This document shows positions 2,146 to 63,831 of a stretch of DNA of 64,000 nt, piece by piece (within the stretch, counting starts at the first letter, position 1; the number at the start of each line of letters is the position of its first letter). The DNA comes from Fictibacillus arsenicus. GTDB taxonomy: Bacteria; Bacillota; Bacilli; Bacillales; Fictibacillaceae. The position numbers were made by a program, and so were the translations under genes. A model generated the notes under the pieces. The model was not told where the DNA came from and searched no databases. It saw only the letters and a program-made list of their open reading frames with translations. The stretch lies in the NCBI RefSeq assembly GCF_001642935.1, contig NZ_CP016761.1:2852001-2916000 (forward strand), in the 5' to 3' direction.

Positions 2146-2363
2146 GGCTGTTTTCTAAAAGATAGTTGCTTAAGGTCGTTTTTTGTTCTCTTCTTTGACA
2201 AGTTGATTGGAGTGCAAGGTGCGAGACTCCTACGGGACGAGCGGTCAGGTGGAGACTCCTAATGGCGCAAAGCGGCAGGAGGCTCACCGCACGCCCCGTG
2301 GAAAGCGAGCAGCCTGGAGCGGAAATTAACTACTTTCAATAGCAACAATGTATGCGAAAAAAG
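2146..2363 (+). repeat. MITE-like dispersed repeat, copy 1
   Basis: The left end reads GGCTGTTTTCTAAAAGAT, then the core GTTGATTGGAGTGCAAGGTG, a GC-rich foldable middle and a right end GCAACAATGTATGCGAAAA. The outermost right bases are degenerate and merge with the terminator of the neighbouring gene. It lies upstream of mltG, in antisense orientation to it. See the other seven copies. Confidence 0.85.
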
Positions 2364-2386
2364 AAGTGCCTCATATGAGACACTTC
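2355..2386 (-). terminator. Rho-independent terminator of the DUF84 gene
   Basis: On the minus strand, GAAGTGTCTCA / TGAGGCACTTC forms a stem directly followed by TTTTTTCGC. It starts three bases after the stop codon of the DUF84 gene. Confidence 0.85.
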
Positions 2387-2388
2387 CT

Positions 2389-2904
2389 TTATTTATTACT
2401 ATTCATATACACATACTGACCTAACAGGATTGTTGCAATATGAGAAAACATTTCGCCTCTGGATAAAAGTCCAGCAGTAAATACGCCGATTGCTCCATCC
2501 TTTTTCCTGATTTCCGGATCATTTGTCCACTCTCCCATAAACTGTCCGAGTTCCTTGCCTTCGCGCAAACCGTCAACTATCGGAGGTGGAAGCAATATTC
2601 TTGCCCCAGCAGCAGTAAGGATATTTCCTTGTCTATCCGCGACCGCTCCCCAATTACTCAAATACATGCCATCTTCCATTTCCATTACTCCACCCTCAAA
2701 ACCAAGACCGATCGCAGCACCTTGTCGTACACAATCTATTGCCCGATTTACTGCACCTGTCTTGGTTTCCTCATCAGAAAATGGCTGTGAGGAAACGAGT
2801 GAATCGGAAGAAAAAACAGTGAGTTCCGCATTCTCAAAATAGTTTAAGAAGGCATCCGCAGCTTTAACTTTTGCGGGATTAGACGACCCAATTCCAATTT
2901 TCAT
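2389..2904 (-). CDS. DUF84 family (YjjX-like) inosine/xanthosine triphosphatase
   Basis: The 171-residue protein opens with MKIGIGSSNPAKVKA, the nucleotide-binding start typical of the DUF84/YjjX family. It continues with SQPFSDEETKTGAVNRA and GLGFEGGV, also family motifs. Members hydrolyse non-canonical purine triphosphates (ITP/XTP), which cleans the nucleotide pool. Length matches the family. It lies 13 bp downstream of the M42 peptidase gene on the same strand and is probably co-transcribed with it, ending at a strong terminator. The substrate in this organism is inferred from the family only. Confidence 0.85.
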   Translation of the reverse strand: MKIGIGSSNPAKVKAADAFLNYFENAELTVFSSDSLVSSQPFSDEETKTGAVNRAIDCVRQGAAIGLGFEGGVMEMEDGMYLSNWGAVADRQGNILTAAGARILLPPPIVDGLREGKELGQFMGEWTNDPEIRKKDGAIGVFTAGLLSRGEMFSHIATILLGQYVYMNSNK

Positions 2905-2917
2905 AACATATTCATCC

Positions 2918-3991
2918 TTAACTATTTTCTAAGATTGTTTGAAGCGTAGAAGCATCTGCAGTTTTAATTAAATTAACAAGCAATTCTTTTGCCGCTGCAT
3001 AGTCATCGATATGGATAATTGAAGCATGTGTATGAATATAACGGGAGCAAATACCGATTACAGCAGAAGGTACACCGTTTCCTGAAACGTGTACACTGCC
3101 AGCATCTGTTCCGCCCTGTGAGATAAAATATTGATATGGAATATTGTTTGTTTCAGCCGTATCTAGAATAAACTCTTTCATTCCTCTATGTGTAACCATC
3201 GTTCTGTCTAAAATTCTTAATAAAGCCCCTTTTCCAAGCTGGCCAAATTCACTTTTATCACCCATCATGTCATTTGCAGGACTCGCATCAAGTGCAAAGA
3301 ACAAATCCGGCTGAATCAAGTTTGCAGCTGTCTTTGATCCTCTAAGTCCTACTTCTTCCTGTACTGTCGCACCGCTGTAAAGTTCGTTTGGAAGAGTTTC
3401 ATCTTTAAGTTCTTTTAACAATTCAATCGCGAGACCTACACCATAACGGTTATCCCAAGCTTTTGCCATGATTTTCCTAGGGTTCGCCATAGGAGTGAAT
3501 GGGCAGATTGGAACGATTTGCTGACCCGGTCTGACTCCCATGTTATAAGCATCTTTATCATCATCTGCTCCGATATCAATATACATATTCTTAATGCCCA
3601 TCGGTCTATTACGCTGATCCTCAGAAAGCAGATGCGGAGGGGTTGATCCAATGATCCCTGTGATAACTTCTCCAGAATCTGTGTATATATTTACACGCTG
3701 TGCCAAAAGAACTTGGCTCCACCAGCCTCCCAATTCCTGAAATTTAAGCATTCCGTTCTTCGTAATTTTTGTAACCATAAAACCGACTTCATCCATATGA
3801 CCGGCAACCATGATCTTTGGTCCGCCATTGCCTTTTTTAACTCCGAAAATACTCCCTAGTCCGTCTTGAATAATTTCATCAGAAACCGGTTCGAGTTCCT
3901 GGCGGACAAACTTGCGGAGATCTCTTTCAAATCCTGGTGCAGCAGGCATCTCCGTCAACGTTTTAAACAATTCGAGTGTTTCTTTATTCAT
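2918..3991 (-). CDS. ytoP: M42 family metallo-aminopeptidase YtoP
   Basis: This is a 357-residue cytosolic aminopeptidase of the M42 family (glutamyl aminopeptidase/PepA-like), with two metal ions per subunit in a self-assembling shell. Metal and catalytic motifs are visible: [11 protein letters not shown] (first His/Asp), WDNRYGVG (bridging Asp), [10 protein letters not shown] (catalytic Glu pair), FALDASP and a C-terminal His in [10 protein letters not shown]. The ATG is preceded by AGAAGGGG. That SD is also one arm of a hairpin with the end of the que operon (see 4003-4059). The DUF84 gene follows. Confidence 0.92.
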
Positions 3992-4002
3992 AATAAAAAC
4001 AA

Positions 4003-4059
4003 CCCCTTCTAAATAATCCTATGTACACGTTTATTGTACACTTTATCAGAAGGGGTTTT
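4003..4059 (-). promoter_or_regulatory. Hairpin spanning the que operon end and the ytoP ribosome-binding site
   Basis: On the minus strand, AACCCCTTCT (just after queC) can pair with AGAAGGGGTT, which contains the ytoP SD and is followed by GTTTTT. The loop carries a second inverted repeat, GTACA/TGTAC. It can act as the queC terminator and would hide the ytoP SD on read-through transcripts. A ytoP promoter may lie in the loop. Confidence 0.55.
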
Positions 4060-4078
4060 CTAGGTTTATGAATATTGT

Positions 4079-4750
4079 CTAGTTTTCGTATGCGATGGGG
4101 TCAAAAGAACCTGCTTCTTTAAATCCTTTAAGACGGAGCAGACAGCTGTCACATTTCCCGCATGCGGATTCTTTTCCGTTGTAACAAGAGGTTGTTAATT
4201 CATAAGGCACGTTAAGAGATAATCCAGCTTCAATCGTTTCCTTTTTTGAAAGATTGATTAACGGAGTTTTTACAAGGATGTTCTTCCCTGTAACCCCAGC
4301 TTTCGTTGCCAGGTTAATCGTTTCTTCCATGCTATGAATAAATTCAGGCCGGCAGTCAGGGTATCCGCTATAATCAACAGCGGAGACTCCTGTATAAACT
4401 GCTGTTGCACCTATGACTTCTGCATATGCACTTGCTAATGCCAGGAAAATCATATTCCGGGCAGGCACATAAGTGACTGGAATGCCTTCTTCAGTCTCAG
4501 TTGGAACATCTAAAGTCTCATCTGTTAAAGCACTTCCGCCTATATCTTTTAAGAAAGTAAGATCAACAATTCTATGGTCAGCAACTCCATAATACTTACC
4601 TACTTCAATTGCCTGTTCTACTTCCCGATTGTGACGCTGCCCATAATGAAACGTTATAGGATAAAGATCATAGCCTTCCGCTTTCGCGATTCCCATGCAT
4701 GTCGTGCTATCAAGTCCTCCGCTTAGGACAATAACTGCTTTTTTACTCAT
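4079..4750 (-). CDS. queC: 7-cyano-7-deazaguanine synthase QueC
   Basis: QueC converts 7-carboxy-7-deazaguanine to preQ0 using ATP and ammonia, the third step of queuosine precursor synthesis. The 223-residue protein has the PP-loop SGGLDSTT at residues 10-17. The zinc-binding cysteine cluster is near the C terminus (CYNGKESACGKCDSC). The ATG lies four bases after the queE stop, with AGAGAGGGG as SD. It is the last gene of the queD-queE-queC operon, which is controlled by a preQ1 riboswitch. Confidence 0.96.
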   Translation of the reverse strand: MSKKAVIVLSGGLDSTTCMGIAKAEGYDLYPITFHYGQRHNREVEQAIEVGKYYGVADHRIVDLTFLKDIGGSALTDETLDVPTETEEGIPVTYVPARNMIFLALASAYAEVIGATAVYTGVSAVDYSGYPDCRPEFIHSMEETINLATKAGVTGKNILVKTPLINLSKKETIEAGLSLNVPYELTTSCYNGKESACGKCDSCLLRLKGFKEAGSFDPIAYEN

Positions 4751-4754
4751 GTAG

Positions 4755-5483
4755 TTATACCCCTCTCTCTTCTGGGTGCCAGATTACTTTATGAAGCTGC
4801 AGGCTCAACTTAGCATTCGGCAAATGACTTTCTAATAAAAGTTCCACTAGCCTTCTTGGCGGCATACTTTCCCAAACCGGACTTACACAAATCTGTCCTT
4901 TTCGATAATGATGCTCCACCACTTGTTGCGTAATTTCAAAATCTTCTTCTGAGCCGATTACAAATTTAATTTCATCCTGATTTTGAAGTTCTTTAAAATT
5001 ACCTAAATTCATTTTGTCCATCTCACCAGAAGCAGGAAGTTTGTAATCCATAACAAACCTCATTTTTCTTTGAAGTTCTGGGTGGGAATTACGCAGTTTT
5101 TCAAAAGGAACTAAATCGATAGCACCATTTGTTTCAATATGGATATCTACAATGTGTTCTAAATCAGCCATTGCCATGAGCAAAGCTGCAGACTTTTCTC
5201 GATGGATGAGGGGTTCGCCTCCCGTGAAACAAATACGGGAAGAACGGAATGATTTAATAGTTGAAATGATCTCATCAATGGATGCTTCAAATTCAGGCTT
5301 TGCAGGTGCATAACTATAAGTCGTGTCGCACCAAGTACAACGCAGATTACAATGAAAGACTCTTACAAATACAGTTGGATAGCCTGCCTGAAGACCTTCC
5401 CCCTCTACTGTTTCAAAAATTTCAACCATCGGGAGTTTCCAATGTCTCCAGATGTCTTTAGATGGCAGATCGAACGACTTCAT
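4755..5483 (-). CDS. queE: 7-carboxy-7-deazaguanine synthase QueE (radical SAM)
   Basis: QueE rearranges 6-carboxytetrahydropterin to 7-carboxy-7-deazaguanine. The radical SAM motif CNLRCTWC (CX3CX2C) binds the 4Fe-4S cluster; CFTGGEPL and HIETNGA follow. I place the start at MKSFDLPS, whose ATG overlaps the queD stop as ATGA. An in-frame ATG 15 bases upstream (5498) would add MDGGR, and the SD does not settle the choice. The GEGLQAGYPTVFVR segment is unlike the B. subtilis QueE N terminus, suggesting another QueE clade. Middle gene of the que operon. Confidence 0.94.
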   Translation of the reverse strand: MKSFDLPSKDIWRHWKLPMVEIFETVEGEGLQAGYPTVFVRVFHCNLRCTWCDTTYSYAPAKPEFEASIDEIISTIKSFRSSRICFTGGEPLIHREKSAALLMAMADLEHIVDIHIETNGAIDLVPFEKLRNSHPELQRKMRFVMDYKLPASGEMDKMNLGNFKELQNQDEIKFVIGSEEDFEITQQVVEHHYRKGQICVSPVWESMPPRRLVELLLESHLPNAKLSLQLHKVIWHPEERGV

Positions 5484-5953
5484 TCTCCCACCATCCATTC
5501 TCTTTTCATAACGGCAAAGCTTGTTGGAGTTTCATACAGCTTTAATTCTTCGATTCTGTGCCCTTTTTCAGATAAGCCTCTTTGTTTTAGTTCAGCATCA
5601 ATCTGTTCCCACATCCAGACAACCATATTTTCAGCAGTTGTATTCATTGGAGGAAGCACTTCGTTTAAGTATCTATGATCAAGTTTTTCATCAATTGCTG
5701 TCTTGAAAATTTCTTTAATTTCACCAAAATCCACTGATATACCGATCTCGTTCACATATCCACTCATTGTGATTACAAGTTTATACGTGTGGCCATGAAG
5801 GTTCTTACACTTTCCCTCATAACAGTGAAGGTGATGGGCTGCATCAAACGTAAATTCTTTGCAGACTGCAACACGTTTATTGTGATATTTTAATTGCTCA
5901 CGCTTTATATCACGGTCAAGCATTTGAACATCTTTAGGAATTTTATAGGTCAT
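5480..5953 (-). CDS. queD: 6-carboxy-5,6,7,8-tetrahydropterin synthase QueD
   Basis: QueD turns 7,8-dihydroneopterin triphosphate into 6-carboxytetrahydropterin, the first dedicated step to preQ1. The zinc histidines appear in FDAAHHLHC (about 37-44) and LHGHTY (52-57), with the catalytic cysteine between them in YEGKCKN. Compared with short QueD proteins there is an N-terminal extension of about 25 residues. SD GAAAGGATG precedes the ATG. First gene of the operon, directly downstream of the preQ1 riboswitch. No queF is present in the window, so the reductase to preQ1 must lie elsewhere. Confidence 0.95.
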   Translation of the reverse strand: MTYKIPKDVQMLDRDIKREQLKYHNKRVAVCKEFTFDAAHHLHCYEGKCKNLHGHTYKLVITMSGYVNEIGISVDFGEIKEIFKTAIDEKLDHRYLNEVLPPMNTTAENMVVWMWEQIDAELKQRGLSEKGHRIEELKLYETPTSFAVMKREWMVGE

Positions 5954-5984
5954 TCCAGTTCATCCTTTCAATGGAGAGCACGAA

Positions 5985-6080
5985 AACAAAAAAATCTCTG
6001 CAGATGCAGAGAGTGTGGAATATCATTCTTCACGCTCCCTAGTTTTGTTTTAGGAGGGGTGGGAATCTCGAACCCTCCAT
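5985..6080 (-). promoter_or_regulatory. preQ1-I riboswitch with terminator, controls queDEC
   Basis: On the minus strand the small aptamer reads GGAGGGTTCGAGATTCCC, then CCTCCTAAAACAAAACTAGG (6035-6079). This is stem P1, its loop and the A-rich tail that forms the pseudoknot. About 25 bases later TCTCTGCA/TGCAGAGA followed by TTTTTTTG is a clear intrinsic terminator (5985-6012). Location just ahead of queD fits the known role: preQ1 binding favours termination. Confidence 0.92.
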
Positions 6081-6185
6081 CTGTATCATGAGTATCTTAA
6101 CAAAAACAGAGAAGAAAAAGAAGGCTTTTCTTTGTTATACTAAAAAATAGAAGAAAAGAAACTCTACATAAGGTGGTTAATGATT

Positions 6186-6494
6186 ATGAAATGGAGAAAC
6201 TTAATCTTTGCCGGACTTGCAGGTGCTGCAGCAGGCTATGCATTTACTAAAAAACAAACAGAATGGCTCTCACCCGAAAAAGCATTAAAAATGTTGAAAG
6301 AAAAAGCAAATCAAACCTATAACATTTCAGGTTCATGGATTTTAGTCAATCGAGAAAGTACTTTTGTTTTTGGTCTTCCATACACGGTTTATAAAGGCGG
6401 CTTTTCTGACTCAAGTTATGGCAGTGCCCCTGTACATTACGAATTTTTAATCGAAGCAAAAACAGGGACACTGCTTCAGCTTATTGAAAAATAA
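6186..6494 (+). CDS. Small exported PepSY-like protein
   Basis: A 102-residue protein with an N-terminal membrane/signal segment (RNLIFAGLAGAAAGYAF) followed by a domain ending in HYEFLIEAKTGTLLQLIE. That ending resembles the strand pattern of small PepSY/'predicted small secreted protein' families of Bacillus. I use the second ATG because AAGGTGG lies at proper distance from it; an ATG six bases upstream is too close. It is divergent from the que operon and has a TATACT -10 element near 6136. Function is unknown; PepSY relation is inference. Confidence 0.75.
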   Translation: MKWRNLIFAGLAGAAAGYAFTKKQTEWLSPEKALKMLKEKANQTYNISGSWILVNRESTFVFGLPYTVYKGGFSDSSYGSAPVHYEFLIEAKTGTLLQLIEK

Positions 6495-6522
6495 CATCTC
6501 TTTTATAAACAGCCAAAAAAAC

Positions 6523-6562
6523 AAAGCCCCTTGTCAGCCATTCAGGCTGAAAAAGGGGCTTT
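6523..6562. terminator. Bidirectional terminator
   Basis: A long stem AAAGCCCC..TCAGCC / GGCTGA..GGGGCTTT between two convergent genes has T-rich bases on both sides. It serves both the PepSY-like gene and the following minus-strand gene. Confidence 0.85.
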
Positions 6563-6567
6563 ACTTA

Positions 6568-7104
6568 TTAACGGTAAAGTTTTGTTTGGTTGTATAGGTT
6601 GTTTTCAATCTTGAATTTTGTAGTAAGGTACTGACGCTTTTCCCAAACCGTCAAGATGAATAACGGAACAATAATCAAGATGAACAATAATGCTGTTACA
6701 ACGACTACATCCATATGAGTTCCAAGATCAGACTCATGCTTCTTTTTATAATCCTTAATTTTGTCACTAGCTTTTGCTACTGCACCTTCAGCTAATAATT
6801 CATTTTTGTCTGCATCATAATAAACAACTTCAGTATGATCAAAATAAAAAATATTATCTCTGACAGTATCATAATTAGCGACAGCAACTGTAACCTCAGA
6901 AGCTTCTAACTCAGGATCTTCATTGGGAAAAGACTGAACGTCTGTTAGCGTTAAAGAACCTTTTTTATAGTCTTTGTGCTCGCTTTTAATCCCTTTTTCA
7001 ATTGTTTTCTTCATTTCATCAGTTGCTGTGTCTGCAGATGCAAAAGAACCGATTGATAAAAACAGTGTAAATACGGTAAACATGGTAATTAACTGCTTTT
7101 TCAT
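6568..7104 (-). CDS. Membrane-anchored exported protein of unknown function
   Basis: The 178-residue protein has a signal peptide (MKKQLITMFTVFTLFLSIGS, cleavage after FASADT is likely) and a membrane helix near residues 133-152 (VVVVTALLFILIIVPLFILT), then a short basic tail. The extracellular part is charged and mentions no known motif that I recognise. SD GAAAGGGG precedes the ATG. It stands between convergent and divergent neighbours and is likely monocistronic. Not recognised; no function is proposed. Confidence 0.8.
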   Translation of the reverse strand: MKKQLITMFTVFTLFLSIGSFASADTATDEMKKTIEKGIKSEHKDYKKGSLTLTDVQSFPNEDPELEASEVTVAVANYDTVRDNIFYFDHTEVVYYDADKNELLAEGAVAKASDKIKDYKKKHESDLGTHMDVVVVTALLFILIIVPLFILTVWEKRQYLTTKFKIENNLYNQTKLYR

Positions 7105-7231
7105 TTTTTAATCCCCTTTCAATTCATCTCTTGAATTGCTTATAAAAAATATAATTTCATACCTTTCATATTTTAACATATCCTGTCGATTTCGACATTC
7201 ACTTGAAAATGGAAATTGTATGACTTTTTTT

Positions 7232-8071
7232 TCACATTTTTGGAGAACGCGGTACTCTTTCCAATATGTTCCCATCTTTATCCCATTTTACTGCTCTGTA
7301 AATGCAGTCATGATAGAAGAAATACCATGTATCAGGTTTAATCCATTTCTGCTTTGCAAAAATAGATGTCATTGGATAATCATCATACGCTAAAACCCAG
7401 AGAGGATTATGGTGAGCGTGAGTAGGCATGATATCACCTAGATGATATATTTTTTCGCTGCCAACATTAAGCTCGATGATTGAATGCCCATCGCTATGGC
7501 CTCCGGTATGTATCATTTTTATACCTTCTATAGGTACAATCTCTTCTTCGAATGTTTTTACTTGGTGAGCAATAGGTTCCCAATTTTCACGCCAGTATGT
7601 ATTTTGAGAACGTACATTAGGATTTTTAAGCTCTGCCCATTCTATTTCCGATGTGTAGATGACAGCGTTTTCGAAAACTGGTACCAATTTATCTTCTTGC
7701 CACTTGGATAGTCCGCATGCATGGTCAAAATGCATATGTGTCATAAGGACAATATCAATATCACTAGGAGCCAGACCTTCTTTTTCAAGGCTCTTATGAA
7801 TTAGAGATTCTTCAGAAACACCATAGTTCCTTAGCTGCTTATCTGTTAATTTACCAGCTCCAATTCCAGACTCAATTAAGATATTTTTACCTCCAAGTCC
7901 TTTGATAAGAATGGGTTCAGTTCTTAACTCAATCTGATTTTTGTCATTAACGGGATATCTTTTTTCCCACAAAGGTTTTGGAACAACTCCAAACATTGCA
8001 CCGCCGTCCATATGTGTTACTCCACCGTCCAGCCAAGTTAGTGTTATCTCGCCGATTTTCCACTGATCCAT
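7232..8071 (-). CDS. ytnP: Metallo-beta-lactamase-fold lactonase YtnP
   Basis: The 279-residue protein shows the metal site THMHFDH at 111-117, and downstream metal ligands in [10 protein letters not shown] and [12 protein letters not shown]. This pattern and the N-terminal [20 protein letters not shown] match YtnP/AHL-lactonase-like hydrolases. B. subtilis YtnP has been reported as a lactonase that interferes with Streptomyces signalling. SD AAAGGAG precedes the ATG. It is followed by no clear terminator. The natural substrate is inference from the family. Confidence 0.9.
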
Positions 8072-26986: not shown

Positions 26987-27208
26987 AGGCTCTATTCTAA
27001 AAGATTGTTGCTTACGATTATTTTATTCCTTCGCTTCATTGATAAGTTGATTGGAGTGTAAGGTGCGAGACTCCTGCGGGACGAGTGTGACAGGTGAGAC
27101 TCCTAATGGTGCATTGCGCCAGGAGGCTCACCGCACGCCCCGCGGAAAGCGAGCACCTGGAACGGAAATCAACTACTTTCAATAACAACAAAGATTGCGA
27201 AAACAGCC
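26987..27208 (+). repeat. MITE-like dispersed repeat, copy 2
   Basis: A full copy with left end GGCTCTATTCTAAAAGATTG and right end AAGATTGCGAAAACAGCC. The core contains GTTGATTGGAGTGTAAGGTG and AGGAGGCTCACCGCACGCCC. ATCAAAAA before the element (bases next to GGCT) and ATTAAAAA after it match in seven of eight positions, as expected for an aged target duplication. Confidence 0.9.
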
Positions 27209-29633: not shown

Positions 29634-32054
29634 TTAGTTTGCCACGATATTTACGAGTTTGCCAGGTACAGTGATTATTTTGCGAATCGTTTTGCCTTCT
29701 ATGCTTTGTTGTACAGCTTCTTCTTTTAAAGCAACTTGCTCCATATCTTGTCCGCTGCTGTTTGCCGGAATCGTCATCTTCGCTTTTAATTTACCGTTTA
29801 CTTGAACGACGATCTCAACTTCATTTTCAACTAGCTGCGCTTCATCCCATACTGGCCAGGCTTCATATGCGATGCTTCCTTTACCACCAAACTTTTCCCA
29901 AAGTTCCTCGCAAATATGCGGTGCGATCGGAGAAAGCATTTTTACAAAGCCCTGAACTAATTCCTTAGGAAGTGTCTCCTGCTTATTGGCTTCGTTAACA
30001 AATACCATAAGCTGTGAGATAGCCGTATTAAAACGAAGACCTTCATAATCCTCCGTTACTTTTTTAACAGTCAGATGGTAAAGACGGTTAAAAGAATCTG
30101 TTCCTTTAGTATCTTGAATCGCCGGATTCAGGCTCACACCATCTTCTGAAACTAACAATCTCCAAACACGGTCAAGGAAACGGCGGGCACCATCAAGACC
30201 TGTCGTACTCCATGCGATAGAAGCATCCAGCGGTCCCATAAACATTTCGTATAAGCGAAGTGTATCCGCACCATGACTCACAACAATTTCATCAGGATTA
30301 ACGACATTGCCTTTTGACTTACTCATCTTTTCGTTGTTTTCACCAAGAATCATACCTTGGTTAAACAAGCGCTGGAACGGTTCCTTCGTTGGAACAACTC
30401 CAAGATCGTACAGCACTTTGTGCCAGAAACGTGCATATAGAAGGTGCAATACTGCGTGTTCTGCTCCGCCAATATAAATATCTACCGGCAGCCAATGCTC
30501 CACTTTTTCAGGAGATGCCAGCTGCTCTTCATTTTTAGGATCGATGTAGCGAAGGTAATACCAGCAGCTTCCTGCCCACTGCGGCATTGTATTTGTTTCA
30601 CGGCGGCCCTTCTTGCCTGTTGTTGGATCAACAACATTTACCCATTGTTCCTCATTAGCAAGTGGTGATTCGCCTGTTCCTGAAGGTCTGATTTCTTTCA
30701 TTACTGGAAGAAGTAATGGAAGTTCTTCTTCAGGGACAGTTGTCATTGTGCCGTCTTCCCAATGAATCACTGGGATAGGCTCTCCCCAATAACGCTGACG
30801 GGAGAATAGCCAGTCACGAAGACGATAAGTAATCTTCTTCTCACCTTTTCCGTTCTCAACAAGCCATGCATTCATTTTTTCGATCGCTTCGACTTTTTGC
30901 ATGCCGTTTAAGAAATCAGAGTTCACATGCTCGCCATCACCTGTATAAGCTGCTTCAGCTACATTTCCTCCAGCAACTACTTCTGCAATCGGAAGCTCAA
31001 ATTTAACAGCAAACTCGTGATCACGCTCATCATGAGCAGGAACAGCCATAATAGCTCCAGTTCCGTAGCTTGCTAGTACATAGTCGGCTATCCAGATTGG
31101 AAGCTTTGCACCTGTTACCGGATGGACCGCATATGCTCCAGTAAACACGCCTGATTTTTCTTTTGCAAGCTCTGTACGCTCAAGGTCAGACTTCGTTTCT
31201 ACTTGCTTTTGATAAGTTGTTACTGCTTCAAGCTGTTGGTCTGTAACGATCTCTTTTACAAGCTTATTTTCAGGAGCAAGGACAAGATACGTTGCACCAA
31301 ATAGTGTGTCAGGTCTTGTTGTAAACACTGTAATTTTAGAAGAATGACCGTCTACGTCAAAATGAACTTCTGCACCTTCTGAACGTCCGATCCAGTTACG
31401 CTGCATATCTTTCAAGCTCTCAGGCCAATCCAAGTCTTCAAGGTCTTCTAAAAGTCTGTCCGCATAAGCCGTAATCTTAAGCATCCATTGTTTCATTGGT
31501 TTACGGACTACAGGGTGACCTCCGCGTTCGCTCTTTCCATCGATAACTTCTTCGTTAGCTAGAACTGTTCCAAGTGCTTCACACCAGTTAACCGGAACTT
31601 CATCAACGTACGCCAGACCTTTTTTATAAAGCTGGATAAAAATCCATTGCGTCCACTTGTAATAAGATGGATCTGTTGTATTAACTTCACGGTCCCAATC
31701 ATAAGAGAAACCTAATTCTTTAATCTGTCTGCGGAATGTATTAATGTTTTGCTCTGTAAACTCTGCAGGGTCATTACCTGTATCAAGTGCATATTGTTCA
31801 GCAGGAAGACCGAATGCATCCCAGCCCATTGGGTGAAGTACATTATAGCCTTGCATGCGTTTCATACGGGAAAGAATGTCAGTTGCTGTATATCCTTCCG
31901 GGTGTCCTACGTGAAGACCTGCTCCAGATGGATATGGAAACATATCTAATGCGTAGAACTTCTTTTTGTCATATTCTTCTTTCGTTTGGAATGTCTTGTT
32001 CTCATCCCAAAAATGCTGCCATTTTTTCTCGATTGTTTTGTGGTTATAATACAT
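29634..32054 (-). CDS. leuS: Leucyl-tRNA synthetase LeuS
   Basis: The 806-residue class I synthetase charges tRNA-Leu. [12 protein letters not shown] (48-59) is the HIGH motif and [12 protein letters not shown] the KMSKS loop. The editing (CP1) domain with [12 protein letters not shown] lies between them. SD GAAGGAGG precedes ATG. The gene is controlled by a T-box leader with a CUC specifier. A MITE-like element has been inserted between the T-box terminator and this SD. Confidence 0.97.
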
Positions 32055-32099: not shown

Positions 32100-32302
32100 G
32101 GCTTTTTAGCAATCTCTCCTGTTGATCTCCGCTCCAGGATGCTCGCTTTCCGGGGGGGCGTGCGGTGAGCCTCCTCTGCGCTTTGCGCCGTAGGAGTCTC
32201 ACCTGTCCCGCTAATCCCCCAGGAGTCTCGCACCTTGCGCTCCTATCAACTTTCAAGGATGTTTTTAAAAAAACGACCATGACAACTTTCTTTTAAAAAG
32301 CC
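32100..32302 (-). repeat. MITE-like dispersed repeat, copy 3 (inside the leuS leader)
   Basis: Read on the minus strand: core GTTGATAGGAGCGCAAGGTG, GACAGGTGAGACTCCTACGG and AGGAGGCTCACCGCACGCCC; outer ends are degenerate (GGCTTTTTAAAAG at one side, AGCAATCTC..GGCT at the other). It is co-oriented with leuS and lies wholly between the T-box terminator and the leuS SD, so it is part of the leuS mRNA. Confidence 0.85.
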
Positions 32303-32304: not shown

Positions 32305-32575
32305 ATAAAAAAACCTCCCGCCCCTAATAAAACATTAGGGACGAAAGGTTAGATCACAATTTTAAACCTGCCGCGGTACCACCCTGATTAACGCAAAAAT
32401 CACGTTCACTCAAACTAACCTTAACGCGGCGGGACGGCAAGTATTACTTTATTCACACTTGCAACTAAAGGGTGAGTTCAAAAAAGTCCGGGTTGACTTG
32501 CACCAGCCGTCAACTCTCTAAATGCCATTCTTTTTTTACTAGTCCCTCTCATCGTTATTAACGAATAAAAGATGT
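32305..32575 (-). promoter_or_regulatory. T-box leader (leucine) of leuS
   Basis: On the minus strand the leader shows the stem I start GATGAGAGGGACTAGTA and a specifier loop TTTGAACTCACCC, in which CTC is the Leu codon. The conserved T-box AGGGTGGTACCGCGG is followed by a terminator (CGTCCCTAAT / ATTAGGGGCG, then TTTTTTTATTT) at 32308-32345. Uncharged tRNA-Leu binding favours the antiterminator, so leuS rises under leucine starvation. Confidence 0.96.
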
Positions 32576-37870: not shown

Positions 37871-38100
37871 GGCTCATTTCTAAAAGATTGTTGCAGTGCT
37901 TCTGAACATTTTTTGTTGAGTACGCTTCTTTGACTAGTTGGTTGGAGCGCAAGATGCGAGACTCCTGCGGGATCAGTGGGACAGGTGAGACTCCTAAAGG
38001 CGCAAAGCGCGAGGAGGCTCACCGCCCGCCACGCGGAAAGCGAGCATCCTGGAGCGGAAGTCAACAACTTCTAATAGCCACAATGTTTACGAAAACAGCC
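37871..38100 (+). repeat. MITE-like dispersed repeat, copy 5 (best preserved, 230 bp)
   Basis: Left end GGCTCATTTCTAAAAGATTG, right end ACAATGTTTACGAAAACAGCC (inverted match over about 24 bases). The core has GGTGAGACTCCTAAAGGCGC facing GCGCGAGGAGGCTCACC, a strong hairpin. The element is flanked directly by TAATTAAT on both sides, an 8-bp direct repeat. It occupies the divergent spacer between ytpA and ytoA. Confidence 0.93.
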
Positions 38101-42861: not shown

Positions 42862-43062
42862 ATAAAAAAAGCCCTTCCCTGTTTCACATATCATTCACGA
42901 GGGAAAAGGTTTAAAATAAAAATGCCTTCATCCTCTTATTGTCCAAGGTTATTTTCACCTTGCAGGTTAGCACCTTTTCATTTTAAGCAGATTATAAACT
43001 CCGCTTTCATGTCGGTTGCTGGGTTTCATAGGGCCTGTCCCTCCACCTACTCAGAATAAGAG
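42862..43062 (-). promoter_or_regulatory. SAM-I (S-box) riboswitch of metK
   Basis: On the minus strand P1 is CTCTTATT / AATAAGAG (43055-43062 and 42933-42940). Between the arms are AGGTGGAGGGACAGGCCCTA, TGAAACCCAGCAACC and AAGGTGCTAACCTGCAAGGT, all hallmark S-box parts. A terminator, AACCTTTTCCCTCG..GGGAAGGGCTTTTTTT, lies at 42864-42912. High SAM should stop metK transcription. Confidence 0.97.
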
Positions 43063-51623: not shown

Positions 51624-51784
51624 GAATCATTTTCAAAAGATTGGAGTACGCTCCTATGACTAGTTGATTGGAGCGCAAGGTGCGAGTCTCCTGTGGCGGG
51701 TTCACCGCACGCCCCGTGAAAGCGAGCATCCTGGAGCGGAAAATCAACCACTCCTAATAGCCAACAATGTTTATGATAACAGCT
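51624..51784 (+). repeat. MITE-like dispersed repeat, copy 6 (internally deleted)
   Basis: A shorter, 161-bp copy: ends degenerate (GAATCATTTTCAAAAGATTG and AATGTTTATGATAACAGCT), core GTTGATTGGAGCGCAAGGTG joined almost directly to TTCACCGCACGCCC. The central hairpin is deleted. TGTAATAA before and TAAAATAA after agree in six of eight bases. Confidence 0.8.
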
Positions 51785-52527: not shown

Positions 52528-52803
52528 GGTTTACAATCTTTGTTGCTCTTGTAAGTGGTTGATTTGCGCTCCAGGTGCTCGCTTTCCGCGGGGCGTGCGG
52601 TGAGCCTCCTCGGCGCAAAGCGCCTGCGGGGTCTCACCTGTCCCGCTGATCCCGCAGGACAAGGAAAGCTTCGACAGCGTTAAATCGCACGAAGAAAATG
52701 TGATTTTCATTTTCGAGGAGTCTCGCACCTTGCACTCCAATCAACTTGTCAATGAAGAAAAGTAACAAAATATTCAATAGCAACAATGTTTACGAAAACA
52801 GTC
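52528..52803 (-). repeat. MITE-like dispersed repeat, copy 7 (with insert and chimeric end)
   Basis: Read on the minus strand the core GTTGATTGGAGTGCAAGGTG..GAGACTCCT is interrupted by about 60 unrelated bases (52662-52719) before resuming GCGGGATCAGCGGGACAGGT. Both outer ends look like the normal right end (GCAACAATGTTTACGAAAAC on the plus strand at 52779-52799). It fills the 350-base spacer to the next gene together with a terminator. Confidence 0.85.
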
Positions 52804-53364: not shown

Positions 53365-53453
53365 TGATTCGTAAGGTAGCTGGCTGGCATATTATAAGAA
53401 ATGAAGCCCCTTTAGCTTTGCGTCCCCACTTTTCAGTGAATTTGCCTTTATCA
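53365..53453 (-). promoter_or_regulatory. c-di-GMP-I (GEMM-I) riboswitch
   Basis: On the minus strand the aptamer reads TGATAAAGGCAAATTCACTG, a GAAA tetraloop, GTGGGGACGCAAAGCTAAAG, then GCCAGCCAGCTACCTTACGA. GGCAAA, the GAAA loop, GACGCAAAGC and the AGCCAG/CTACC receptor side are hallmarks of GEMM-I. P1 can form between TGAT..AAGG and CCTT..ATCA. A -10 TATAAT lies about 70 bases upstream. There is no obvious terminator; control may be at translation start. Confidence 0.85.
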
Positions 53454-53574
53454 AACGATTTATGGTATTTCTTCTGTTATTTTGTCGTAAAAATAAACCC
53501 TTTTCCCTACCCTTAGGGATATTATACCAAAAATAAAGTAAAGAAGTATCTATTTTTTAAATATTTAAAATTAT

Positions 53575-56932: not shown

Positions 56933-57135
56933 TAAAAACCCACGAAAACTAGAGAGGAATTTTCCGTGGGGTACACTGCAACACATAGACTTAGCCCATG
57001 TATATAAGCTCTCTCTCCAAAAACGCTTACGAGGTTAGCTGTCGGATTAGGGAATTGAGAGTTATCCCTTCTGCTTTTAACAAATTCATCCCAGGCATAG
57101 TGCCAAAGTTGTGGTTCCCCCGCTTCTTTTAAGTT
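56933..57135 (-). promoter_or_regulatory. ydaO/yuaA-type c-di-AMP riboswitch
   Basis: On the minus strand the conserved blocks appear in order: GAAGCGGGGGAACCACAACT, GCCTGGGATGAATTTGTTAA, GCAGAAGGGATAACTCTC and CCTAATCCGACAGCTAACCT followed by CGTAAGCG. A terminator CCCACGGAAAA / TTTTCGTGGG plus TTTTTA lies at 56933-56970, just before the symporter gene. c-di-AMP binding favours termination. Confidence 0.95.
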
Positions 57136-57180
57136 CAGAATAGAACAAAAGAATTCAGCGAATCATATTAACATGTTTTA

Positions 57181-58535: not shown

Positions 58536-58661
58536 CTACATCCCCTCCTGTACAAAACTATATGTGAAGCATCGATTTTTTATGAAAAGGGGAAATTGAA
58601 TCATTACATATAGATTTTTTAGGGTATAAGAGGATAGAAAGTATAAGTCGGAGGTGCCTTC

Positions 58662-59363
58662 GTGGGTTTTTTGTTTACTTTACTTTATTTTGCAATTATT
58701 GCAGTCGTTATTGAAATCAATGTTCTTTTATTTACACTTACAGGATTAAAAAAAGAAATTGCCCGTTTTCAGGTTATCTCTATGTTTACTGCTACAGGAT
58801 TTACTACGGGAGAATCAGAATTAATTTTAGAACATCCAATCAGAAGAAGACTGAGCACTTTTCTTATACTCTTTGGTGTTTTCTCTCTTGCTGTAGTCAT
58901 TTCTGCGATAAGCAATATATTATCTGATGAGTTTCGCTCTATTGAACTTGGGATGATTACATTGGCACTTATAGGACTCTACCTCATTCTGAGTATGCCG
59001 AAGTTTAAACGCTATCTGGAGAAATCGTTTGAAGGACATCTTGAAAAACAATACAATTTAGCTGATCTGCCTTTGCGTGATGTTATGTATTTTGATGAAG
59101 ATGACGTCGTTATTGAACTGCCTATCCACAAAAACTCATCAGTAATCGGCAAGAAATTAAAAGACGTTATTGAAATAGAAGATGATATGCTGGTGCTATT
59201 TATTAAACGCGGTGATGTTACATTAAGGAAGGACAGCTATACTACTGAAATACAAGAAGGAGATATGATATTCCTATACGGCAATCAAGACTCCCTTACA
59301 AAAAGGTTTAAAAAAGAAATGGAAGAACTAAAGGAAAAAACAGAAAAAGAAAAGAAAGTGTAA
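58662..59363 (+). CDS. Membrane protein with RCK_C (TrkA-C) domain
   Basis: A 233-residue protein with three membrane helices (about 4-28, 62-84, 93-112), the motif FQVISMFTATGFTTGESELI, and a C-terminal RCK_C domain (about 145-215: VIELPIHKNSSVIGKKLKDV, GDVTLRKDSYTTEIQEGDMI). RCK_C domains bind c-di-AMP in KtrA/KtrC and CpaA, so it may sense that nucleotide or control ion flow; this is inference. GTG start seven bases after GGAGG. Confidence 0.85.
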   Translation: MGFLFTLLYFAIIAVVIEINVLLFTLTGLKKEIARFQVISMFTATGFTTGESELILEHPIRRRLSTFLILFGVFSLAVVISAISNILSDEFRSIELGMITLALIGLYLILSMPKFKRYLEKSFEGHLEKQYNLADLPLRDVMYFDEDDVVIELPIHKNSSVIGKKLKDVIEIEDDMLVLFIKRGDVTLRKDSYTTEIQEGDMIFLYGNQDSLTKRFKKEMEELKEKTEKEKKV

Positions 59364-59394
59364 AAAAGGAGCTTTGTAATAAGCCCCTTTTTTC
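59362..59394. terminator. Bidirectional terminator
   Basis: AAAAAAGGAGCTT / AAGCCCCTTTTTT between the RCK_C gene and the convergent GGDEF-EAL gene. Confidence 0.8.
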
Positions 59395-59395
59395 A

Positions 59396-62047
59396 TTAAA
59401 CCGTAATAGGTTTGATTGCTTTTACCTTAGTCATATGATTGATAATCAACAACTCAATTTTTTCAGCTTCCATCGGCCGGCACGTATAAAATCCTTGTAT
59501 TTCATTGCAGTTCTTCTCTTTTAAGTAATTATATTGTTCTTCTGTTTCAACGCCTTCAGCCACAACGTTCATTTTTAATGAGTGAGCTAAAGTGATGATG
59601 GCAGTAGCAATGGCAGAATCATCTGTTTCTGTTCCAATTCCTCTTATAAATGATTGATCGATCTTTAATGTATCAATATGGAATTTCTTTAAATACCCCA
59701 TTGAGGAATAACCCGTCCCGAAATCATCCAGCGCAAAATGCACACCCATTTTTTTTAATTGCTCGATGGAGAAAAGTATAGTTTCTTCATACTTCATTAA
59801 TGTACTTTCCGTAATCTCAAGCTCTACGAATTCCGGAGGCAAACCCGTTTCCTTCAGAACAGATTGAATAGATGCTACAAGATCTCTTTGCAAAAATTGC
59901 CTAGCAGATAGATTTATAGCTATTCTAACCGGAGGATATCCATTATCCATCCACTCTTTAGTTTGTCTGCAGGCAGTGCGAATAACCCATGCTCCTATTT
60001 TAGTAATCAGCCCTGTTTCTTCAGCTAAGGGAATGAATTCCCCAGGAGAGATCATCCCCCAGCGAGGATGTTTCCATCGAATTAAGGCTTCCAAAGCAAT
60101 GATAGATGTTCGATCTATAGAAAACCTTGGCTGATAATGAAGCAGCAGTTCATCATTCTCAATGGCTCCGTGCAGTTCATTCTCCATAAGCAGTCTTTCA
60201 TAACTGTTGCTGTCTAGCGCACTTTTATAATATTGATACGTATTTTTACCATCTTCTTTCGCTCGGTACATAGCAAGGTCTGCATTCTTCAGTAAAGCTT
60301 TCGGGTCGTGACCATCTAGGGGGAATATAGAAACACCTATACTCGCTGTAATATGTATCATTTCGTCCTTAATAAAAATAGGTTCCGAAAATATTTCTAG
60401 AAGATTAGTCATTTTCCTCTTAAGCTTCTCTTCGTTTATATCTTCAAGAATGATTGTAAATTCATCACCGCTCATCCGATACACTCTGCCAAAACCTCTA
60501 GTGAACAATTTCAATCTTAAAGAAACTTCTTTTAAGACGAGGTCGCCAAAAGAATGCCCGAGTGAGTCATTAATAAATTTAAAACGATCTAAGTCTAAAA
60601 ACAGGACTCCCAGCTGCTGACTTTTATTTTCAGCGTTCCGTAGGTGACCTTCAAATTCTTCTGTGAATGATCTTCGATTTGGCAAGCCTGTAAGCTGATC
60701 CTGATATGCCATCCTTTTAATAAGTTCTTTGTGTTTATTTCTTTCAGTAATATCTCTTGCCACTACAACAATGTTCTCAATATCACCTGATTCTTTCAGC
60801 ACTGGCATGGCCCTGGCTTCAATCGTAACGTAATGGCCATCTGCATGAAGATAACGAAACTGAACTTCTAACGGCTTTTTATCATTTAAAAGATCTCGAA
60901 ATTTATCAGATACCGCGGGAATATCTTCCGGATGTGTATAGGTCAGAAAAGAGTTACCCAGATTGGCTTCTGCTCCAAAAATAAGCTTATAAGAAGGTGA
61001 CGTATACTTAACCTTTCCGCTCGTATCAAGTGTGACAATTAGGTCTGTAACATTTTCAGTCATCGCTCTGAATTTAGCTTCACTTTTTCGAAGTGCTTCT
61101 TCTTTCTGCTTTTGTTCAATCGCTAATCCTGCGAGATGCGAAAACGCTTCCATTGTTCCCCATTCTTTTTCATCAGGGGAAGAAGGTGCCTTAAAGTAAA
61201 CGGCTAAGATTCCAAGTAGCTGATTGGAAGATGATAGAATCGGATTGCTCCAGCAGGCTCTTACTCCATGCTGCAAAGCCATTCGTTTCTTTTTATCATT
61301 TTTCAATTCCTTCCCTATATCCATTAAAATAACTGACTTGTATGTGAACGCCGCTCTGCCGCAGCTCTCTTCAGCAGAGCTTATTTCAATCTGATGTATA
61401 TCTTGAATGAATGATTCAGACAGATTAGCTGAATAGAAATACTCAAGTCTTTTATCCCGCTCATTAGCCAAATGAATACAAACTTCTGATTGTGGCATAG
61501 CTGCTTCAAAATTTAAAGAAATGGCTTTAAACACATCCTTCAAGCTGCATCCTTTTGCAATCATCTCTAATATTAATTTTTGGCCGATAAGTAAGGATTC
61601 TGCATTTTTTTGTTCTGCATAAAGGATACGATATTGTTCTTCAGATCTTTCTAGTTTTTCTGCGATGCTTTTGGATTCGGTAACGTCTTTAACAGATGCT
61701 AATAAATGTGTGCACTCGCCTTGTTGATTATGTATAGGGGTTAAGCATGTCACGGCAGTTTGCAGTATACCCTTATGGAACGTTTCTGTCTCAAACTGAA
61801 TCGATTCTTCGGAGAATACCGCTTGTTCATAGACCTCTTGCAGTTCTTCAGCTAGTTTCCTATCAAGTACCTCTTCCATAAACTTGCCAATAACATCCCT
61901 CTTGATGCCTGCAAATTTAAGAGCTGAATCATTTGCTGCTGCATATTGAAATCTCTTTCCTTCATCCACTACTTTCATTAAAAACATCATATCGAGAAAT
62001 CCATTAAATAATGTGTTAATCTCTGTTTGATCTTCTATCCGAAACAT
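59396..62047 (-). CDS. PAS-GAF-PAS-GGDEF-EAL cyclic di-GMP protein
   Basis: The 883-residue soluble sensor has an N-terminal PAS domain (about 10-130), a GAF-like domain (about 160-310, with CWSNPILSSSNQLLGILAVY), a second PAS (about 320-440), GGDEF (about 445-605, site RMSGDEF) and EAL (about 615-865). EAL-site residues are intact: ALEALIRW, NLSARQF, ELEITEST, DDFGTGYSSM and AEGVET. It likely makes and breaks c-di-GMP in response to two sensed signals. SD GGGGAG. Second such protein in the window, and c-di-GMP riboswitch lies nearby. Confidence 0.93.
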   Translation of the reverse strand: MFRIEDQTEINTLFNGFLDMMFLMKVVDEGKRFQYAAANDSALKFAGIKRDVIGKFMEEVLDRKLAEELQEVYEQAVFSEESIQFETETFHKGILQTAVTCLTPIHNQQGECTHLLASVKDVTESKSIAEKLERSEEQYRILYAEQKNAESLLIGQKLILEMIAKGCSLKDVFKAISLNFEAAMPQSEVCIHLANERDKRLEYFYSANLSESFIQDIHQIEISSAEESCGRAAFTYKSVILMDIGKELKNDKKKRMALQHGVRACWSNPILSSSNQLLGILAVYFKAPSSPDEKEWGTMEAFSHLAGLAIEQKQKEEALRKSEAKFRAMTENVTDLIVTLDTSGKVKYTSPSYKLIFGAEANLGNSFLTYTHPEDIPAVSDKFRDLLNDKKPLEVQFRYLHADGHYVTIEARAMPVLKESGDIENIVVVARDITERNKHKELIKRMAYQDQLTGLPNRRSFTEEFEGHLRNAENKSQQLGVLFLDLDRFKFINDSLGHSFGDLVLKEVSLRLKLFTRGFGRVYRMSGDEFTIILEDINEEKLKRKMTNLLEIFSEPIFIKDEMIHITASIGVSIFPLDGHDPKALLKNADLAMYRAKEDGKNTYQYYKSALDSNSYERLLMENELHGAIENDELLLHYQPRFSIDRTSIIALEALIRWKHPRWGMISPGEFIPLAEETGLITKIGAWVIRTACRQTKEWMDNGYPPVRIAINLSARQFLQRDLVASIQSVLKETGLPPEFVELEITESTLMKYEETILFSIEQLKKMGVHFALDDFGTGYSSMGYLKKFHIDTLKIDQSFIRGIGTETDDSAIATAIITLAHSLKMNVVAEGVETEEQYNYLKEKNCNEIQGFYTCRPMEAEKIELLIINHMTKVKAIKPITV

Positions 62048-62194
62048 ACTTTAGTCTCCCCGATAATTAAGTTGATAACTATCAAAAAATTCAAATTTCT
62101 ACTATAAGTATATAAAATTGTTAATTTTTTTACCATAAATAATAAAACAACCCCCAAAACCAATAGAAGGTGTTCGAAAAATTAAAAAGTACAT

Positions 62195-62231
62195 AAAAAA
62201 AGAACCTCTCCGATGGATGGAGGTCCTTTTA
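62195..62231 (-). terminator. Terminator of the 76-residue gene
   Basis: On the minus strand AAAGGACCTCC / GGAGAGGTTCTTT followed by TTTTATG, twenty bases after the stop codon. Confidence 0.82.
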
Positions 62232-62250
62232 TTGCTGCCGCTTTAAATTG

Positions 62251-62481
62251 TCATCCTACTTCTTTAACAGTCATAGGAACAAAAGATAATAACAAAGAAA
62301 TAATGTTATTAATTTGTTCCGGAGTAATATGTATTCCATCGTTAGCTAATAATTCTTCTTTAAGACGTATGATTCTATCCACTTCTTCTAGCCGAGCATC
62401 ACTCAAGCAATAATCAATCGTATTTAATAACTCCAGCAACTGATTATTTTTATTGGTAATGTAATATGTAGTGTTCACCAA
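62251..62481 (-). CDS. Small helical protein of unknown function
   Basis: A 76-residue, mostly helical protein: NKNNQLLELLNTIDYCLSDA then EEVDRIIRLKEELLANDGIH. It looks like the small helical Spo0E-type proteins but lacks their signature. The start is TTG (or the next GTG) after GGGGGG. A Spo0A-like box TGTCGAA lies about 120 bases upstream, and kapD lies beyond it. Function unknown. Confidence 0.72.
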   Translation of the reverse strand: MVNTTYYITNKNNQLLELLNTIDYCLSDARLEEVDRIIRLKEELLANDGIHITPEQINNIISLLLSFVPMTVKEVG

Positions 62482-62600
62482 TAAACACCCCCCACTATCA
62501 TTATTATCGAAACTAAGGTCATTTTCCTACAAAAACAATTCGTCAAATGACGACATATCTTACTTTATATGGATTTTAACCCATTATACCTAATGCTTTT

Positions 62601-62607
62601 TGTCGAA
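62601..62607 (+). promoter_or_regulatory. Possible Spo0A box
   Basis: TGTCGAA within CTTTTTGTCGAAATC matches the 0A-box core exactly. It lies upstream of the 76-residue gene. A 7-base match is weak evidence alone. Confidence 0.35.
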
Positions 62608-62697
62608 ATCGGTCGTATTTTCAGGAACAAAGTCCTATTATTAATTCTTTTGTTAACTTACATATTTTACAAGTTTACGCATATCTGTGTAATTACT

Positions 62698-63342
62698 TTA
62701 GTTAAATAACTTTGATAATGAAGCAAATGGAGAGATTTCCTCTTCAGCTTTTGTTTTATATACTAGTTTTTCAGGTTCGAAGAGTTTAGATTCCATGTAA
62801 GAAGCTGGATTAATTGTAAAGACAACATTACTGAAAATCTTTTGAAGGATTTTAGCAGTATTAATTGCATCATCTAACGCCCGATGCTTAGAACCCTCAT
62901 AGGTTAGTTCCAATGTTTGAAGGGCCCGTGATAATCCGTAGCGAAATCCTTTATCACTATCATGCAGCATACTGAAATGGAATTGCAGATCATTGTGATT
63001 AATAATCCATTCAATATCTGTCTGGTGAAAAGTAGAATCTGTAATGAGAGCCCATTTATCTTCAGGTCCCCAGGAGCATAAATAATAGTCTTCTAAGCCT
63101 ATCCATGCTCGAAAGCTTTCAATGGCTTCAGTGTAAGAAGGAGCCGAAATTAAATCTTTTTTTGTTATACCTGTAAGATTTGTTATGCGTGTATTTAATT
63201 TATCCATTTTCGGCTGAACAAAGGATTGAAACGTATCAAGATGCATTAGTTCTCCATTTACTACCTTCATTCGTATTGCGCCAATCTCAATAATTTCAGA
63301 CAATCGGTTAGTCATTTCCAGATCATAGACAATATATTGCAT
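62698..63342 (-). CDS. kapD: DEDDh 3'-5' exonuclease, KapD-like
   Basis: A 214-residue exonuclease. Exo I is VYDLEMT (Asp7, Glu9) and Exo III HRALDDAINTA (His, Asp), the DEDDh class. Overall it resembles KapD, named in B. subtilis as an inhibitor of the KinA sporulation pathway. Substrate is RNA or DNA, not known. The ATG at 63342 is preferred over a GTG 12 bases upstream, which lies in the SD region. Gene name by similarity only. Confidence 0.8.
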   Translation of the reverse strand: MQYIVYDLEMTNRLSEIIEIGAIRMKVVNGELMHLDTFQSFVQPKMDKLNTRITNLTGITKKDLISAPSYTEAIESFRAWIGLEDYYLCSWGPEDKWALITDSTFHQTDIEWIINHNDLQFHFSMLHDSDKGFRYGLSRALQTLELTYEGSKHRALDDAINTAKILQKIFSNVVFTINPASYMESKLFEPEKLVYKTKAEEEISPFASLSKLFN

Positions 63343-63629
63343 CCTCCACCACACCTGCCTTTCATCATTTTGCCCTTTTGGTGAATGTCTACCATTATTG
63401 TAGATGATTTGTTAACAAAATGAAATATTTCCATGAGTTTAATTCGTTGCAAGCTGATATAATTACTATGTCTTTTTATTTAGCTTCTTCGTTAACATTA
63501 TTTTATGATTTTGATCAGCTTACATGTCATCTATTCTCCATCTGTAAATGTTTATTAATCTGCCAAACTTTTTCATTTTCAATTTACTGTTTCTTTTGTT
63601 ACCATTATTGTTGTCTGTTTTAAATAAAT
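63343..63629. other. AT-rich spacer with no gene seen
   Basis: About 290 bases between kapD and the next MITE-like copy. I found no frame with an SD, no hairpin terminator and no recognised RNA. It should contain the kapD promoter. Confidence 0.6.
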
Positions 63630-63831
63630 ACTATTCATGTAATCTTTGTAGCTCTTGGAAGGGTTGATTTCCATTTCAGGTACTCGCTTTCCGCGGGGCG
63701 TGCGGTGAGCCTCCCTATCGCTTCGCGCTGACGGGGTCTCACCTGTCCCGCTAATCCCGCCGGAGTCTCGCACCTTACACTTCAATCAACTTTTCAAAGA
63801 AGCCGAAAAGTAAAAATCTTTGTGAAAAGCC
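63630..63831 (-). repeat. MITE-like dispersed repeat, copy 8
   Basis: Read on the minus strand: GGCTTTTCACAAAGATTTTT, core GTTGATTGAAGTGTAAGGTG, GGCGGGATTAGCGGGACAGG, AGGGAGGCTCACCGCACGCC; the other end is degenerate (AGCTACAAAGATTACATGAA). It lies between divergent kapD and the lipoprotein gene, ending 34 bases before the latter's ATG. Confidence 0.85.

Follow-up and report, generated by a model that had tools for sequence, protein, structure and literature searches.

The 64,000-nucleotide stretch of Fictibacillus arsenicus DNA studied here (contig NZ_CP016761.1, positions 2,852,001 to 2,916,000; hereafter the window) harbors eight copies of a short repeated element. Inverted ends, flanking 8-bp duplications, empty sites in related genomes, a high copy number and an autonomous element with the same ends elsewhere support the identification of these copies as miniature inverted-repeat transposable elements (MITEs). 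Very probably, they are mosaics, some 220 bp in length or 270-309 bp in a longer form, in which ends of the IS1595 insertion sequence family surround a structured cassette that also occurs in or beside some IS1182-type elements. The ends, duplications, empty sites and autonomous element were observed directly, as were compensatory changes in the cassette, its strand bias and its differing transposon contexts. A MITE is commonly regarded as a shrunken copy of a single transposon, whereas here the ends belong to one transposase family and the interior is a conserved folded module that is also present in or next to elements of another family. MITEs of insertion sequences are well known; the shared cassette is the novel part.

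The copies are listed below with their scores against R1, a covariance model of the cassette; the borders of copies 3, 6, 7 and 8 were set by eye, and flanking 8-mers were scored for copies 1, 2, 4 and 5 only.

2146..2365, + strand: MITE copy 1; R1 101.9 bits, right end degenerate, flanking 8-mers 1/8 identical
26988..27208, + strand: MITE copy 2; R1 119.5 bits, flanking 8-mers ATCAAAAA and ATTAAAAA, 7/8 identical
32100..32302, - strand: MITE copy 3; R1 118.2 bits, placed after the leuS T-box terminator and ahead of the leuS start codon
35628..35903, + strand: MITE copy 4; R1 35.9 bits, long form with core sequence replaced or inserted, flanking 8-mers 6/8 identical
37871..38100, + strand: MITE copy 5; R1 110.9 bits, complete, with a perfect 8-bp duplication TAATTAAT, 8/8
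51624..51784, + strand: MITE copy 6; R1 44.6 bits, mid-core deleted
52528..52803, - strand: MITE copy 7; R1 82.4 bits, long form, its core carrying an insert after GACTCCT
63630..63831, - strand: MITE copy 8; R1 118.4 bits, ends decayed
37937..38065, + strand: structured cassette in the core of copy 5; basal stem, a pair of GNA/GNA-type loops and an apical GGTGAG/CTCACC stem

A core 20-mer matched the window eight times with at most three mismatches and was absent from 100 shuffles, which confirms the eight elements, in both orientations (five copies on the + strand and three on the - strand), that a first-pass annotation had reported. A left-end 20-mer matched five times, versus a shuffle mean of 0.01. 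The core is also richer in G+C than its surroundings, as that annotation had noted (53-64% in the eight R1 matches versus 38% in the window). The ends around these copies are of the IS1595 type and not of the IS1182 type, and the left arm of copy 7 bears an R-type end. According to a mechanical list of open reading frames (ORFs), no transposase is encoded within the elements, again as predicted, and no ORF longer than 111 aa overlaps them. Short ORFs of 95-111 aa do cross copies 3 and 4.

On alignment, 30 copies from the same genome proved to be one family. The left end, GGCTCTTTTCTAAAAGATTGTTGC, is followed by an AT-rich spacer, which varies, and then by a G+C-rich core bounded by GTTGATT and AATCAAC; the right end, read on the opposite strand, is GGCTGTTTTCGCAAACTTTGTTGC. 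The lengths of 41 clear-ended copies ranged from 207 to 309 bp and fell into groups of about 220 bp and of 270-309 bp, with a single copy at 239 bp. Across the 4.06-Mb genome, 227 core sites were found with at most one mismatch to a 13-base core word, compared to one for the reversed word, so that the very high genome-wide number foreseen from the window was borne out. The exact word occurs 144 times in this genome, 9 to 119 times in seven congeners, and in 89 of the 299 genomes of the order (36 of 116 genera). A strand pattern among the core-word matches listed was rejected as an artefact of the listing. With no transposase, lengths below 500 bp and many dispersed copies, the family has the attributes of IS1595-derived MITEs.

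Evidence for transposition came from flanking duplications and from orthologous sites. We examined 107 distinct copies from fetched stretches of this genome (part of the 227), among which 41 had both ends matching at 17/24 or better. The flanking 8-mers were identical in 14 of these 41 copies and matched at 7/8 in another eight, while the remaining 19 matched at 6/8 or fewer; pairing the flanks of different copies predicted 0.23 and 1.05, respectively. Thus, direct repeats at 7-8/8 flank 22 of 41 copies versus 1.3 expected, and the outcome that the first-pass annotation had named as refuting its reading, repeats no more frequent than chance, did not occur. Its claim of similar 8-bp words held less evenly in the window itself, where three of the four clear-ended copies matched at 8/8, 7/8 and 6/8 and the fourth at only 1/8.

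Empty orthologous sites, also proposed as a check, were found in sister species for copies 5 and 4, so that the other refuting outcome, identical occupancy in all relatives, did not occur either. The site of copy 5 is occupied in one congener (G046) and unoccupied in three others (G167, G084 and G302); the flanks are joined around a single TAATTAAT in G167 and G302, and around an altered word in G084. Among 11 aligned congener loci (17 genomes searched), ten cross this junction without the element, the exception being G046. The site of copy 4 is empty in G167. At copy 2 the sister species differ, though with no clean empty site, and copy 3 is common to F. arsenicus, G046 and G167.

A plausible source of the transposition activity was identified outside the genome. 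A 1.77-kb element on a plasmid of Niallia sp. Man26 has ends that resemble those of the MITE at 20/24 and 21/24 positions and is flanked by a perfect 8-bp duplication; it contains an IS1595-family transposase, P0001 (profile matches DDE_Tnp_IS1595, 1.3e-14, and transpos_IS1595, 4.1e-61), together with a DinB-family passenger gene. Matches to P0001 at 1e-30 were present in 61 of the 299 genomes of the order. Fifteen fetched loci with at least 56% identity to P0001 (L078-L091 and L098) included 11 in which both ends matched at 18/24 or better (18-23/24), and nine of these 11 are flanked by 7-8/8 duplications, the others being L098 (6/8) and L085 (1/8). Among 15 more distant loci (approximately 41-46% identity), three (L094, L095 and L102) have other ends, GGCTCTGTTAAA...TGTTGA, with 8/8 duplications. 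The combination of MITE-like ends and 8-bp duplications on IS1595 elements suggests that an IS1595-type DDE transposase most likely moves the MITEs in trans, a mechanism that we infer from sequence. Some IS1595-type elements on Bacillales plasmids (L069:1529-3293 and L074:2801-4360) hold further ORFs between their ends, namely a DinB-family gene and a hydrophobic 108-aa ORF.

The ISL3 and IS6 families also generate 8-bp duplications and have ends starting with GG, and a transposase of one of these types might mobilize the family instead. This is highly improbable, as the transposases of the elements in which such ends and duplications were found are of the IS1595 family, and no ISL3 transposase (PF01610) was matched in the F. 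arsenicus genome, IS6 lying outside that search. The 8-bp duplications also speak against a Y1 mechanism such as that of REP/REPIN elements and RAYT. Phages were also searched, and none was found.

The interior of the elements appears to have a different affiliation. In their ends, AT-rich 8-bp duplications, small size and absent transposase, the window elements are like the MITEs of IS1595-family elements, while their interior is unlike a deleted IS1595: R1 had no match in 39 loci (L069-L107), comprising 33 with a complete or fragmentary IS1595 transposase and six with end-like words only. The MITE is therefore probably not a shrunken IS1595. As its core was absent from the loci searched, we describe the element as a mosaic and file it under IS1595 by its ends only.

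At 1e-6, R1 had matches in 100 of 398 genomes and 34 of 145 genera of the class, in a census that scored at most eight candidates per genome under strict filters. Besides its occurrence with some IS1182-family elements, the fold exists across the Bacilli as single copies or pairs. An R1 match lies nearby in 13 of 30 IS1182 loci. In other genera, the cassette lies about 33 nt after the IS1182 transposase match in one locus (L313), precedes it by about 54 nt, on the opposite strand, in another (L304), and sits between the left end and an open IS1182 transposase gene in three loci of one genome (L302, L310 and L317 in G506). In fetched loci such as L300, L316 and L292, IS1182 genes are bordered by the words TTTGTCTACAGTCTGA and GAGGCTGGGACA. 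Among 95 R1 matches, nine have both IS1595 ends (in G019, G082 and G031), five have one, and 20 have IS1182-type end words nearby; a control with shuffled flanks gave 0, 0 and 2 of 950, respectively. In L271, an IS1182 transposase end, a cassette and an IS1595-type right end are joined, a junction suggestive of recombination at the cassette. IS1182-family elements (IS1272, its relatives and small derivatives) thus in some cases bear the same cassette beside the transposase gene or near the ends, and the window elements differ from them by their other ends and their 8-bp duplications. A further difference is that some of the IS1182-type copies are located within terminator palindromes.

Several minor observations concern these same elements. 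An insert starting with CGAAAATG occupies the same core position, after GACTCCT, both in copy 7 (52528-52803, - strand) and in a plasmid-borne cassette of Bacillus subtilis (L067), and two other loci (L110 and L113) carry different inserts near that point. The F. arsenicus genome holds five equal-scoring IS1182 transposase copies (at 247898, 573621, 2202103, 2518932 and 3262163 of C1 in G000) with the same stop pattern (one TGA), which suggests that a broken or frameshifting copy has spread; a sixth, at 2200552, has a similar score. Outside the order, L240 (G645) and the other genomes of family f62 mostly have one to four cassette matches each, and four have at least eight.

Most of the 22 cassette sequences that we folded, from several genera, form one long stem, in which a basal stem is followed by two symmetric GNA/GNA-type loops flanking a 2-bp helix, a middle stem (CTGCGGG/CCCGCGG) and an apical stem (GGTGAG...CTCACC). 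In the seed alignment (20 sequences), both sides have changed in 22 of 46 pairs versus 8.9 in shuffled alignments, a count reached by none of 500 shuffles; RNAalifold alone predicted 31 pairs, 14 of them with both-side changes. With 95 matches aligned (86 distinct), the figure rose to 39 of 46 pairs versus 26.9 shuffled (0/500), and the cells with both-side changes among the 86 numbered 579 versus 123.5, while slid versions of this alignment gave at most 24 pairs and 104 cells. The 86-sequence alignment was fitted to R1, so that its counts lean towards the model; the seed alignment was not, though its structure was taken from one seed sequence, and the site of L223 is in both. The 102 rows from F. 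arsenicus itself gave 26 of 46 pairs versus 13.4 (0/500). Arrays of head-to-tail cassettes occur in L114 (G298:C2:139300-141100) and L115 (G183:C1:3056700-3058400), with several neighbors 232 bp apart and a different basal stem (GTGCCTC/GAGGCAC) that is still paired.

An alternative hypothesis is that the elements are plain MITEs whose core is inert filler and whose inverted repeat is kept by template switching (quasi-palindrome correction) rather than by selection. In copy 3, the middle stem reads GGGGG/CCCCC in F. arsenicus and GCGGG/CCCGC in both sister species (G046 and G167); such matched changes on both arms favor this hypothesis, although this double change may stem from selection, gene conversion or template switching. 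Single copies also appear nearly neutral by eye. However, arm-to-arm correction alone should yield full complementarity and would have wiped out the GNA/GNA loops, which persist in 73 and 72 of the 86 sequences and are fully complementary in only three and one. The mismatches are strand-specific as well: at normally Watson-Crick pairs, G-U/U-G outnumber A-C/C-A by 115 to 32 across genera and by 126 to 69 in F. arsenicus, and a single U-G pair is retained in 70 of 86 sequences. Equal mutation of the two strands should make G-U and A-C equally frequent; the excess thus indicates that the fold of the printed strand matters, as RNA or as single-stranded DNA, with the caveats that model fitting can inflate it and that the other strand of the palindrome scores weakly with R1. 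As the cassette moreover recurs across different transposon contexts, we consider the inert-filler hypothesis unlikely.

We tentatively propose instead, as a credible if unsettled reading, that a portable and hitherto uncatalogued structured RNA or single-stranded DNA cassette, with two tandem GNA/GNA loops and a covarying 2-bp helix, has passed among unrelated transposon families (those with IS1182 and IS1595 ends, perhaps also others) across Bacilli as a selfish functional part whose fold benefits its carriers. One possible role, by analogy with ERIC or Correia/NEMIS repeats, is that of an RNA in read-through transcripts, where it might serve as a leader or 3' structure, as an RNase III substrate or as an insulator of neighboring genes. 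The G-U excess and the GNA/GNA loops agree with such a role, as do the positions of two window copies in relation to the genes below.

32334..32561, - strand: T-box leader (RF00230), an Rfam match directly upstream of copy 3
29634..32054, - strand: leuS, leucyl-tRNA synthetase, downstream of copy 3

Whereas copy 3 stands in the leuS leader, copy 5 ends 20-30 bp ahead of the candidate start codons of a hexapeptide-repeat protein gene, so that intergenic does not mean untranscribed. Terminator-like hairpins lie within 60 bases of 24 of 112 ends (56 copies) versus 23 of 369 intergenic control pieces, which half overlap one another (Fisher p 1.3e-5); this enrichment bears out the earlier remark that copies often adjoin terminators and is also favorable to a role in transcripts. 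According to a review (PMC10969869), transcripts that contain Correia repeats are reported to be cleaved by RNase III. No clear orientation bias was found among 60 copies, which speaks against a role in read-through transcripts: 18 are sense, 15 antisense, 15 convergent, 10 divergent and 2 undetermined. Gene orientation was accordingly discarded as a sign of function in cis.

Alternatively, the cassette might act as single-stranded DNA in transposition, as the end-proximal hairpin of palindrome-targeting IS1182-type elements that was later captured by IS1595-ended MITEs. The close neighbor pairs are relevant here: of 15 such pairs, ten (in seven genomes) are inverted and all of these face outward ('-+'), with the folding strand outward, in favor of this role, while the other five are direct. 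Two inward pairs in the opposite order ('+-'), in L302 and L310, also count against it, being apparently a MITE beside an IS1182 copy. Elements of the G506 genome (L255, L256, L235, L302 and L310) are flanked on both sides by the same terminator palindrome, as would be expected from duplication of a long palindromic target, whereas the flanks of L317 differ. IS1272, of the IS1182 family, has been reported to replace stem-loop targets, and its new insertions lack duplications (PMC5678879, available part). Considering that the window family has a single cassette in mid-element and that 17 of 30 IS1182 loci have no match, we regard a role in transposition as somewhat unlikely.

Those 17 loci weigh against the mosaic interpretation as well, as does the lack of orientation bias, and several further observations must be set beside them. 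By the tests used, 61 of the 95 R1 matches have neither end type. Two IS1182 copies of the F. arsenicus genome (L290 and L301) are framed by IS1182 end words that enclose no cassette, the match of L290 lying outside; L311 has none. A different lowest-energy fold was obtained when L063, L108, L125 and one copy of L115 were folded alone, and close to the middle stem, a number of the pairs in the model are largely open in this genome (92 of 99 cells at one pair). By eye, three orthologous copies are no more conserved than their flanks. The copies of this genome depart from the majority base in 11% of paired columns, 16% of unpaired columns and 18-20% of the ends, a divergence that does not demonstrate a recent burst. 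Finally, no IS1595 transposase was found in this genome (P0001 at 1e-30; PF12762), and the two loci in the 18 genomes of the genus that have one lack the 24-bp ends. The full-length partner that the first-pass annotation had required, one with the same inverted ends, thus exists elsewhere and was not found at home; the enzyme may have been lost or may have come from outside, for example on a plasmid.

On balance, the following course of events appears to account best for the mosaic elements. An IS1595-type DDE transposase would act in trans on ends of 24-27 bp, leaving 8-bp AT-rich duplications, and the MITEs would enter AT-rich sites, often the T-tracts of terminators, with little harm. Between the ends sits the conserved structured cassette of 125-130 nt, presumably passed between elements by recombination and working as a folded single strand, most likely as RNA in transcripts leaving the element and less likely as single-stranded DNA in transposition. 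The first-pass annotation had offered RNA-like mobile repeats as an alternative to MITEs; this proved partly apt, as the core is a conserved folded module common to other transposon types, and the elements are still MITEs.

Known repeats offer several comparisons. The bcr1 element of the Bacillus cereus group is likewise a folding intergenic repeat of Bacillaceae, set against the window family by description only; we take its ends and duplication length to be different. In Table 3 of PMC2267715, Bcr1 is given as 167 bp with 31 copies, and Bhal-1 of Bacillus halodurans as a folding, intergenic 74-bp repeat with 36 copies. Bhal-1, from a related genus and likened by description only, could be part of the same cassette. 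ERIC, Correia/NEMIS, BOX and RUP are likewise MITE-like repeats with folding transcripts, some of which alter mRNA stability; they belong to other taxa, and the available part of review PMC10969869 describes no cassette common to unrelated transposon families, nor does its available main text mention IS1595, IS1182 or Bacillus. A description of the cassette was not found among the matches listed in the open-access literature, most subscription journals being outside that scope. Rfam 15 gave no match to the window copies at gathering scores, and a search of ten loci with E values as high as 5 yielded nothing beyond chance-level overlaps with the core (tsr24, E 0.85, on L065; mir-679, E 0.73, on L119). 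A hit to SpF43 on L065 (E 0.0065, 30.8 bits against a cut-off of 70) was dismissed, as it coincides with a terminator-like hairpin that precedes the core.

If the cassette works, it would be a transferable functional part of mobile DNA, and the use of a small folded RNA or DNA to a transposon would become testable. R1 could moreover serve in the annotation of many repeats of Bacilli, including at least one that lies in the leader of leuS, an essential gene.

Apart from the T-box, Rfam matches at gathering scores placed three riboswitches in the window, all on the - strand: SAM at 42933-43062, c-di-GMP-I-GGC at 53371-53455 and c-di-AMP at 57009-57170.

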